A stretch of 64,000 nt of DNA, from the NCBI GenBank assembly GCA_029210205.1, contig JARGOD010000014.1:1-64000 (forward strand), given 5' to 3'. Under the pieces are notes generated by a model, which saw nothing but the letters and a program-made list of their open reading frames with translations, ran no database searches and was not told the origin of the DNA. The stretch is from Verrucomicrobiales bacterium (GTDB lineage Bacteria; Verrucomicrobiota; Verrucomicrobiia; Verrucomicrobiales; DEV007). Positions 3 to 3,883 of the stretch are shown piece after piece (the stretch's first letter is position 1; each line of letters begins with the position of its first letter). A program made the translations under genes and the position numbers.

Positions 3-461
3 ATGAACCAACGATTTAGGATTCCAGTCAGTCGGTGGTCGCTGATTTGGCTCCCCTTGCTCGTGCTTATTCAAGTTCCGAGCATTTTGTATCGCTTCTC
101 AAAATTTCGAGAAGAGTCTGATCTCAATTCCGGTTTGTTCCTTTTACTATGGATTCTGGCTGGTATCTTTTGGCTGGTTTTCGCAATTCGGCAGTTTCGA
201 ACTGCTGATGTGATTTTGATCGAGGAAGAAGAGATCACGGTCCACAGCGAAAGAGGCGAACGGATATTCCCATCCAAAACGGTTACTACCGTTACCGACG
301 ATCAAATTGCATTTCATTTGTTCTTCAAAAAGGGCGAGATCAGCCTCTCAAAGAAAACGATTCCCTCTGACTTGGCGAAATGCCTTGAGGAACGCATCTT
401 GGCAGATTCGGGAGCGAACAAGACGGAGATCTCAAGCCCGATCACGTCCGGAGTTGATTGA
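3..461 (+). CDS. hypothetical membrane protein (two N-terminal TM segments, PH-like C-terminus); possible integron cassette ORF
   Basis: ORF with two hydrophobic segments, followed by the attC-like repeat at 451-540. Confidence 0.6.
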   Translation: MNQRFRIPVSRWSLIWLPLLVLIQVPSILYRFSKFREESDLNSGLFLLLWILAGIFWLVFAIRQFRTADVILIEEEEITVHSERGERIFPSKTVTTVTDDQIAFHLFFKKGEISLSKKTIPSDLAKCLEERILADSGANKTEISSPITSGVD

Positions 462-540
462 CTTCCGTGATTCAAATCCGTAACATCCAGTCGAGGTCTC
501 GCCCTCTGATCGGGCTGAGATGCCTCGGACGTTCGCCTGA
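451..540 (+). repeat. imperfect direct repeat copy A, attC-like hairpin
   Basis: Gapless alignment with 1032-1121, about 65/90 identical by hand count; first 23 nt identical (GAGTTGATTGACTTCCGTGATTC); ends GTTCGCC. Confidence 0.6.
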
Positions 541-546
541 ATAGAG

Positions 547-1038
547 ATGCACAATTTACTCCTACCGCCTCTCCATTCTACACGGCTGATGTCGGGTATC
601 GTCGCAACTGCCTTCCTTTGTTTGTGCGTTCTCCCCGGCATTGCCAAGGCGCAGAAAGGAATCGATCCATCCGACATATGGTATCGGGCTTTTATCCTCG
701 TCCAGTCGGCAAAGGAGATGGAAGCGCAGGGAAGGTTTCTTGAGGCGATCAATAAGCTCGACGAGGCCATGCCCCTCTATGACCACCTCGCTCAACAATC
801 CCCTGAATTTCAGCCCGAGATCGTCCGCACTCGACGCAATCTCATCGCAGAAAAGCGGGACCAACTGAAAATCGCGATGGGGCCGAGAGCCCAAGCCGAC
901 CTACACAATTATCGAGTTTGGTTCGTGTGCTCAGCTCTCGGAATTCTTTCTGTCATCTTAATTGCAACTATGCTATTCAAGCGCAAACAAGGAGGCGAAC
1001 AAGCCGACGCTGGTAAGCCTGATCCCGCCTCGAGTTGA
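547..1038 (+). CDS. hypothetical secreted/membrane protein (N-terminal signal, C-terminal TM)
   Basis: ORF with hydrophobic N-terminus and a TM segment near the C-terminus; flanked by the two repeat copies. Confidence 0.6.
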   Translation: MHNLLLPPLHSTRLMSGIVATAFLCLCVLPGIAKAQKGIDPSDIWYRAFILVQSAKEMEAQGRFLEAINKLDEAMPLYDHLAQQSPEFQPEIVRTRRNLIAEKRDQLKIAMGPRAQADLHNYRVWFVCSALGILSVILIATMLFKRKQGGEQADAGKPDPASS

Positions 1039-1121
1039 TTGACTTCCGTGATTCGAACCTTCAACCTCCAAGCGAGAGACTGCCGCCGGATCAGGCTACC
1101 AGGTCTTGAACGTTCGGCTGA
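1032..1121 (+). repeat. imperfect direct repeat copy B, attC-like hairpin
   Basis: Same length as copy A; contains CGAACCTTCAA ... TTGAACGTTCG (11-bp stem with one mismatch); ends GTTCGGC. Confidence 0.6.
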
Positions 1122-1135
1122 GAAATGACTGAGAA

Positions 1136-1429
1136 ATGACTGAGATATACGAAGAAACCGGCGGTTCGCGCATAGGTTGTTGGAACGCATCTTGGCCATT
1201 TGCGAAACTTATTGTATCAGACGAGAAGATTACTCTTCAGAGTGTCGGAGGGCCTTACTCTTTTCGGAGGGAGGAAATTGATTCCATATCCAAATTTCGA
1301 GGCTTATTTTCCCTCGGGATTCAAATAAAATCGTTCACAAAAGAAACTCCGGACCCACTGGTGTTTTGGACCTTTCGGTTCGCGACACTCAGGCGCAATT
1401 TGGAGTCGAGAGGTTACAAAATCAGCTAG
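1136..1429 (+). CDS. small hypothetical protein, possible cassette ORF
   Basis: 97-aa ORF directly after repeat B; NASWPFAKL...GGPYSFRREEIDSI pattern. Confidence 0.55.
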   Translation: MTEIYEETGGSRIGCWNASWPFAKLIVSDEKITLQSVGGPYSFRREEIDSISKFRGLFSLGIQIKSFTKETPDPLVFWTFRFATLRRNLESRGYKIS

Positions 1430-1673
1430 CCAGACCCGACGCCAATTGCCGAACAAGACGAGTTACTCAAGCCCTGACCGCCATGAGTCGAAATGACTTT
1501 TCTAATTCCAAACTTCAACTCACAATCAACCCGCGCTCACAGTAGCAGACGCCAGCATTGAGCTGTTCCGAAACCGAGGAGCACCCGACACGCCGGAGCG
1601 CTTCTAACTGGCAGTCAGGATTTCCACGGGAGTGTTGCCTCAGCCATCTCGCTGAAACCATCTGTCGGTAGTC

Positions 1674-2774
1674 TCAATCTTCGGTCGTGCCTCCGCCGGA
1701 ATTACCCAGCTCAGCATGTTCCGGAGGAAGGGCCGCTTTGAAGCGGCTCTTATCGATCGCTTTCATGTAGGCTTCGAGTCCGGAGACCTGACCTTCCAGC
1801 ATCTTGGACCAGATCGAGTCATCCATGAACTGCATGCCGTATTCCTTTCCGCCGGTGATGATGTCGAACAGTTTCTGGGTTGAGCCTTCCCGGATAACGG
1901 AACTAACGGCCGGGGTGGAGACGAGAATTTCGTTCACCGCGGTTCGTCCACCGTCTTCGGTCTTGAGAAGCAGTTGTGCGACCACTCCGCGAAGTGAGCC
2001 GGCGAGCATGGTCCGAACTTGGGCCTGTTGATCGGAAGGAAAAACGTCGACAAGACGATCGACGGTCTTACGGGCATTGTTCGTGTGAAGTGTGCCAAAG
2101 ACGAGGAGTCCAGTCTCAGCCGCGGTCAGGGCGAGTGAGATTGTTTCGAGGTCCCGCATCTCACCCACGAGAACGATGTCGGCATCTTCACGAAGTGAAG
2201 CACGCAAGCCGTCAGCGAAGGACGGGGAATGAACCGGCACCTCCCGCTGACTGATCGTCGATTTCTTATTGTTGTGCACGAACTCAATCGGTTCCTCGAT
2301 CGTGATGATGTGGCGAGAATAGGTTCGGTTAATGTAATCGATCAGAGCCGCCAGGGTCGTGGATTTTCCGGAACCGGTTGGGCCGGTCACGAGAACGAGT
2401 CCGCTTCGCATGTCGCCAAAGCGCTCAATGCTGTCGGGCACTTTCAAGTCCTGAAGAGTCTTGATCTTGGTCGGAATGAGACGAAAGACGGCTCCGAGGC
2501 CGTTCTTTTGTTTGAAGTAGTTGCAACGAAAGCGGGACTCCTTGTCCATCTCGTAGGCGAAGTCGAGGTCACCGACTTCGAGAAAGCGTTCAAAGGCTTT
2601 TTCGTCGCAGATTTCTGCGAGCATTGCCTTGATCGTGGCATGCTCGAGAATGCCTTCGGAGATCGGTTGAATCGTTCCCTGCGCCCTCAGCTTGGGAGGT
2701 TGGCCTTCGCTCAGGTGAAGGTCGGAGCCCCCGGTCGCGACGAGGTGCTGGAAATATTGGTCAATGACAGCCAT
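1674..2774 (-). CDS. pilT: type IV pilus retraction ATPase PilT family
   Basis: GPTGSGKST Walker A, EEPIEF, GEMRDLETI, TLHTNNA motifs. Confidence 0.92.
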   Translation of the reverse strand: MAVIDQYFQHLVATGGSDLHLSEGQPPKLRAQGTIQPISEGILEHATIKAMLAEICDEKAFERFLEVGDLDFAYEMDKESRFRCNYFKQKNGLGAVFRLIPTKIKTLQDLKVPDSIERFGDMRSGLVLVTGPTGSGKSTTLAALIDYINRTYSRHIITIEEPIEFVHNNKKSTISQREVPVHSPSFADGLRASLREDADIVLVGEMRDLETISLALTAAETGLLVFGTLHTNNARKTVDRLVDVFPSDQQAQVRTMLAGSLRGVVAQLLLKTEDGGRTAVNEILVSTPAVSSVIREGSTQKLFDIITGGKEYGMQFMDDSIWSKMLEGQVSGLEAYMKAIDKSRFKAALPPEHAELGNSGGGTTED

Positions 2775-2800
2775 AGGAAAAAAGGTTGGGTTGTTTAAGG

Positions 2801-3883
2801 TTACGCTCCGATTGCGGCTCTCAGGGTTGGAGGATCAATAGCGCGACCGATGGCCTCTTCTTTAGAGATCTTTCCTTCGTTGTAGAGTTCGATGAGCGCG
2901 TCATCCATCATGATCATGCCGATTTTCTTTCCGGTTTGCATGACGCCGGGCAACATGAACGTTTTTCCTTCGCGAATGAGAGAGGAGACCGCCGGAGTGT
3001 TCACGAGGAGTTCGAGAGCAAGTTCGCGCCCTGTTCCTTCGGTATTGGGCACCAGTTGCTGAGAAATGATGCCGCGAAGTGATTCGCCGACCATGATTCG
3101 AATTTGCTCCCGCTGTTCGGTCGGGAAGACGTCGAGAACCCGGTCCAGGGTACGGGCGGCACTACCGGTGTGGAGCGTCGCAAGGACGAGGTGACCGGTT
3201 TCCGCTGCAGTAATCGCCAGTGAGATCGTCTCGAGGTCACGCATCTCACCCACCATGATTACGTCCGGATCTTCACGAAGAGCGGCTCTGAGAGCATGGG
3301 AGAAACTTTCGGTATGAGTGTGGACTTCCCGCTGGTTGACGTGGCAGTCTTTCGATTCGATGACGTACTCGATCGGATCTTCCAGGGTAATGATGTGGTC
3401 GGTGCGCTGACGATTGATCTCATCGACGAGGGCCGCGAGGGTCGTTGATTTACCGGAACCGACAGCCCCGGTCACGAGGACAAGGCCGTTGTGATATTCG
3501 AGGAGTGGCTTGATCGCATCGGGCAGGCCAAGCTCATCCATGGTTCGGAGTGAGGTGTCAATGACGCGGAAAACCATCTCCCATCCGAGGCGGGTTTTCA
3601 CCACGGAAGCACGGAAACGACCGAATCCGGGGTCGTAGGCAAAGTCGACATCTCCTTTTTCTTCGAGGCGTCTCAGCTCTTGCTCGGGTAAAAAGTTTCG
3701 AGCAAGCGTTTCGCTTTGTTCAGGAGATATCGTGTCCGCGTTTTCCCAGATAGGCTGGAGAAGTCCGAAGCGTCGCCACTTAGGTTGCGTGCTTGGGGCA
3801 AGGTGGACATCGGAGACTTTGTATTCCTGAGCGAGACGAAGGTATTCGTCAACGTGACTGAGGATAGCGATCGTGTCTGACAT
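2801..3883 (-). CDS. second PilT/PilU-family ATPase
   Basis: GAVGSGKSTTLAALVDEIN, LEDPIEYV, GEMRDLETISLAITAAETGHLVLATLHT; likely start MSDTIAIL at 3883 rather than 3979. Confidence 0.9.
   Translation of the reverse strand: MSDTIAILSHVDEYLRLAQEYKVSDVHLAPSTQPKWRRFGLLQPIWENADTISPEQSETLARNFLPEQELRRLEEKGDVDFAYDPGFGRFRASVVKTRLGWEMVFRVIDTSLRTMDELGLPDAIKPLLEYHNGLVLVTGAVGSGKSTTLAALVDEINRQRTDHIITLEDPIEYVIESKDCHVNQREVHTHTESFSHALRAALREDPDVIMVGEMRDLETISLAITAAETGHLVLATLHTGSAARTLDRVLDVFPTEQREQIRIMVGESLRGIISQQLVPNTEGTGRELALELLVNTPAVSSLIREGKTFMLPGVMQTGKKIGMIMMDDALIELYNEGKISKEEAIGRAIDPPTLRAAIGA

Follow-up and report, generated by a model that had tools for sequence, protein, structure and literature searches.

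The window considered here is a stretch of 64,000 nucleotides, comprising bases 1-64000 of contig C109 in a draft genome (4.9 Mb, 195 contigs, 87% complete), and its left edge coincides with the end of the contig. The source is an uncultured Akkermansiaceae-type Verrucomicrobiales bacterium that carries a gene-capturing integron, and the left part of the window is the distal end of one cassette array, adjoining a pilT-type ATPase gene. Three gene cassettes are visible, all on the forward strand. The first contains an ORF at 3..461, which encodes a protein of 152 aa without a Pfam family and whose stop codon lies within the recombination site attC 1 (413..537), bounded by the R'' box AGCGAAC (413-419) and the R' box GTTCGCC (531-537), and scoring 121.7 bits with the covariance model described below. 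Judging from this R'' box, the cassette would start just left of the contig edge, where GTTCGCT is expected. The second cassette encodes a protein of 163 aa (547..1038; no Pfam family at threshold) and is followed by attC 2 (994..1118; R'' GGCGAAC at 994-1000, R' GTTCGGC at 1112-1118; 120.8 bits). The third encodes a protein of 97 aa (1136..1429; no Pfam family), and its site, attC 3 (1448..1571; R'' GCCGAAC at 1448-1454), is terminal and degenerate, scoring only 43.8 bits. The array end falls in 1572..1673, and homology to sister genomes starts at ~1674-1676, at the end of the pilT-type gene, which occupies 1674..2774 on the reverse strand as the chromosomal flank of the array, its family having been read from the sequence.

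A cassette array with attC repeats at this contig edge had been proposed in a sequence-only reading, and the proposal is borne out by the covariance model, by arrays on a single strand and by the linkage of the repeats to the integron integrase (IntI) in relatives. The details, on the other hand, need to be redrawn in part. The limits 451-540 and 1032-1121 given to the two sites are too narrow at one end, the full sites being 413-537 and 994-1118. The ungapped two-copy repeat is real, with 71% identity, but it starts ~37 nt further left and is 127 nt long (414-540 and 995-1121); likewise, the identical 23-nt stretch GAGTTGATTGACTTCCGTGATTC is indeed present at 451 and 1032, although its overlap with the stop codon lies inside the site and not at its start. 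A search of the window with a 21-nt core of this repeat gave two perfect matches, against 0 in 100 shuffles. The R' boxes had been placed correctly in both position and letters, whereas TTCGAAC (1052-1058), taken for R'', has to give way to the boxes at 413-419 and 994-1000. The hairpin drawn for the second copy is a sub-optimal inner fold: this shorter segment folds no better than shuffles, whereas for the complete sites either strand is more stably folded than its shuffles (z -2.3 to -2.9). The fold of attC 3 is no better than that of shuffles.

When 20 sites of this genome were aligned from AAC to GTT, they were found to measure 123-129 nt, with the invariant ends AACAAG and ACGTT, and to share a covarying L stem of 14 pairs, 13 of which show at least one two-sided change. 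The suggested conservation of structure is therefore upheld, but the pair CGAGG/CCTCG on which it had been based lies outside the consensus stem. Within the left arm, G16 and A23 are nearly invariant and have no partner, resembling the bases that are extrahelical in known attC (PMC2727003). R and L boxes are present in these sites, together with a single-strand stem and with bases left unpaired in one arm; their R boxes, however, do not fit RYYYAAC and GTTRRRY, only AAC and GTT being invariant. An Rfam scan of the repeat region gave no match. Searched at the DNA level, the genome itself yielded numerous additional copies on C53, a contig of 14.8 kb, and a covariance model, which was trained on this genome's own sites with attC 3 left out and is thus not an independent attC model, identified 34 sites at E<1e-3, arranged in same-strand clusters. 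One more was later recognised on C53, giving a total of at least 35 (C53, 19; C151, 4; C109, 3; C102, 3; C19, 2; C54, 2; C61, 2). The three outcomes that would have spoken against the sequence-only reading did not arise: the model gives matches, the copies follow single ORFs in arrays on one strand, and in relatives IntI lies beside them, encoded on the other strand.

According to the established integron mechanism, which would apply here, attC is recognised by IntI as a folded bottom strand and is joined at G/TT with either attI or a second attC. If cassettes are inserted at G/TT as circles, the R'' box of a site should pair with the R' box at the start of its own cassette, rather than with the next R' box in the linear order of the array. 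The window array obeys this rule: the R'' box of attC 2 is exactly complementary, in reverse, to the GTTCGCC at 531 with which the second cassette begins, and that of attC 3 pairs with the GTTCGGC at 1112, even though its L stem is lost. In all 18 usable cases on C53 and C109, R'' and the cassette-opening R' are exact reverse complements (19/19 when attC 3 is added), while agreement of R'' with the R' of the linear site to which it belongs was seen in just 2 of 23 cases on these contigs; the highest count in 100,000 permutations was 9. At six loci of relatives, the rule held in 29 of 30 cases, versus 0 of 36 for pairing within sites. The rule is independent of folding, and we regard it as proof that these are true integron cassettes. 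The unusual R' boxes, whose departure from GTTRRRY had been regarded as a difficulty, are accounted for as well: after the fixed GTT, any four bases can follow in this clade provided that the two ends of the cassette circle pair. A dispersed palindromic repeat of the REP or MITE kind, unrelated to integrons, would likewise yield palindromic copies at ORF ends, but it is refuted by the cassette rule and is also at odds with the single strand used in each cluster, the single-ORF spacing and the linkage to attI and IntI, so that we assign it a negligible probability. Requiring no model, the rule can moreover serve to recognise true cassettes in clades whose attC are unusual.

The cassettes are small single ORFs, mostly without known families. 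The few recognisable products include a metallophosphatase, a SUKH/SMI1 protein, a macro-domain protein and DUFs. PADLOC, applied to ten cassette proteins, detected no defence system, a macro-domain protein on C54 giving only a weak DarG-like match.

Only one protein in the genome scores above the integron-integrase cut-off (326 bits vs 265). It is encoded on contig C17 (locus L045, 254-1594), and among PDB entries Vibrio IntI4 (2a3v; E 1e-62) matches it best, over residues 109-426. Its N-terminal extension of ~105 aa has no Pfam match, and is kept in Verrucomicrobiales and Akkermansiaceae MAGs as well as in Rubritalea profundi. At the loci of relatives, IntI lies on the plus strand and every attC match of the same family on the minus strand, upstream of IntI, which is the usual divergent layout. 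Among 57 genomes searched, IntI was found in 31 and this attC family in 44. Furthermore, a palindrome of the form TGTTC-N4-GAACA is located 46-61 nt before the aligned intI start, and in 16 of 18 loci it has no more than one mismatch. Because the same palindrome precedes, in relatives, not just intI but also lexA-, recA- and dinB-like genes (upstream of intI in L090-L128; also L205, L202, L209, L207, L206 and L199), the names of which were read from the protein sequences, it looks like an SOS (LexA-type) box; a LexA motif of this form has reportedly been published for Verrucomicrobia. Given such a box before intI in relatives, cassette capture is probably induced by DNA damage in this clade. 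The copy before the C17 intI in the present genome is degenerate, with two mismatches.

Alignment of the regions upstream of IntI revealed a conserved clade attI of ~170 bp, which ends in GATAC-G/T-AATAAATACTGTT. Contig C17 breaks off inside its attI; the stretch left of its intI was considered as a first cassette ORF and rejected, comparison with relatives having identified it as part of attI. Contig C120 terminates in a complete attI, ...GGTGATACGAATAAATACTGTTATG, which follows a bile-acid-symporter-type gene by only ~110 bp and has no intI beside it. In the sister genome G027, this symporter gene lies ~44 bp from pilT, and none of 19 sister loci contains an attC beside pilT; it is therefore probable that the array was gained here between the two genes. 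From the gene order in this one sister genome, the C120 attI is most likely the head of the window array. There are no exact overlaps among the ends of C120, C53, C109 and other contigs, and the assembly contains no join between C120 and C109. No intI was found on either of the two. Thus, where an integrase gene had been expected further left, the best evidence, by synteny, places an attI without one.

With the copies on C17, C120, C32 and C91, the present genome contains four attI. Distal array ends with chromosomal flank are also four in number (C109, C54, C19 and C102), and further small clusters are located on C61 and C151. The numbers of attI ends and of distal ends are consistent with four separate platforms.

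We consider it likely that the array in the window lies between the intI-less attI of C120 and pilT, forming a platform that has no integrase of its own and is probably served in trans by the C17 enzyme. A more conventional arrangement would be an ordinary complete integron, in which the array that starts at the C17 integrase has its distal end in the window and the C120 attI heads another array. That C17 breaks off within its attI, and that C53, C54, C19, C102 and C109 are not joined, leave room for other pairings of ends; but G027, in which the C120 gene neighbours pilT, pairs C120 with C109, and we regard such an arrangement as unlikely. At 87% completeness, a second intI could also be missing from the assembly.

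Platforms of this kind are by no means confined to the present genome. An attI model identified 69 copies in 34 genomes of the genus, 10 of which have an IntI match within 3.5 kb and 57 of which do not, some of the latter lying near the other contig edge and being kept in the count; the remaining 2 lie so close to a contig start that they could not be classed. Genome G006, for instance, has 13 attI vs 3 intI. We examined 21 attI loci (20 plus C120) that were chosen for their lack of a linked intI match and are not a random sample. In 19 of these, tblastn at E<=10 detected no trace of an integrase beside attI, while integrase remnants were found at two, L261 and L264, the former with a distant tyrosine recombinase (32% identity) ~5 kb downstream. 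Many of the intI-less loci are interior to contigs of 100-400 kb, and so do not represent breaks in the assembly. The attC that follows an intI-less attI is on the same strand, and its R'' is the reverse complement of the attI GTTNNNN in 16 of 16 cases. At later attC pairs of these platforms the cassette rule held in only 2 of 16 cases, which we put down to short attC missed by the model or mis-read box ends as candidate causes, so that only the attI-to-first-attC result is used for them. In addition, one cassette is common to two intI-less platforms on different contigs of G006 (L252 8057-8497 and L254 4171-4611), with 93% identity over 441 bp and with homology that starts and ends at the cassette borders. 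Platforms without intI could have originated either by loss of intI or by copying of attI alone, and the remnants at L261 and L264 favour loss in at least two of them.

Under the mechanism that we propose, IntI would have inserted the gene cassettes as single circles, joining the folded bottom strand of attC at G/TT; the C17 enzyme would serve the C120 attI in trans, and one integrase would insert, excise and reshuffle cassettes at several attI platforms. Alternatively, the platform may be a dead relic, in which cassette exchange ended with the loss of intI and of which attI and attC are the remains. The attC 3 that no longer folds and the integrase remnants at two loci of relatives agree with this, and progressive loss of integron activity has been described in Xanthomonas (PMC12444791). 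Against it stand the intact attC 1 and attC 2, the cassette common to two intI-less platforms, and the full conserved core that intI-less attI copies retain even though 19 of the 21 loci bear no integrase trace. We hold the relic to be rather improbable, though less so than the ordinary complete integron, and attI may be maintained by selection in the absence of a neighbouring intI. A single integrase serving several platforms in trans is probably the better description. Whether this extends to the whole genus, such that its integron is a distributed system with one or a few SOS-controlled integrases serving many scattered attI, each under selection without its own integrase, we judge to be about an even call.

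In the usual view, an integron consists of one intI, one attI and one array, and arrays without intI are decayed remains. The system described here resembles sedentary chromosomal integrons, such as the VCR array of Vibrio cholerae, in its conserved ~125-nt attC, its single-ORF cassettes in one orientation and, as seen in relatives, its divergent IntI and the SOS box before intI. It differs from them in that only AAC and GTT are fixed in the boxes, rather than RYYYAAC and GTTRRRY, in that there are several arrays and attI copies per genome, and in the extended N-terminus of IntI. With at least two attC sites and no integrase nearby, the window array is also a CALIN, i.e. a cluster of attC sites lacking an integron integrase, as already described (PMC9024848); unlike the usual picture of a CALIN as a degraded integron that contains no attI, however, it would begin, according to synteny, at a conserved attI at which the first cassette was inserted. 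Another parallel is the published CALIN with its own attI in the Shewanella prophage M16-3, which is headed by attI and lacks an intI of its own, as the window array probably does, which lies in a genome region that contains a complete integron, and whose attI core, CTAATAAA...TGTT, is similar (PMC9892861). That is a single prophage case, whereas here there are dozens of chromosomal copies across a genus. Integrons have been published in Verrucomicrobiota before (PMC8618304), and a partial literature search brought up no account of attI-headed platforms that lack intI and number in the dozens within one genus. Since attI search is no longer a default of IntegronFinder 2.0 and attI is poorly described outside class 1 (PMC9024848), such platforms would be filed as CALINs and their layout missed by standard integron searches. 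A clade-specific attI model makes it directly testable whether orphan arrays are alive. If the system is indeed distributed, capture and expression of cassettes would take place in many different genomic surroundings, and the arrays termed orphans would be functional components instead of relics.

The arrays elsewhere in the genome are not uniform. That on C102 (L171), as its sequence reads, mixes types of attC, a short site of classical form (~70 nt, at approximately position 1795 of the reverse complement, missed by the model) standing beside sites of ~125 nt. On C53, an IS110-type transposase gene (Pfam Transposase_20; ORF 2652-3734, reverse strand) lies inside an attC (L030, 2015-3884), of which the R'' box GGAGAAC (2015-2021) matches the cassette-opening GTTCTCC and the rest is found beyond the element; IS1111 elements targeting attC have been described (PMC11187229).
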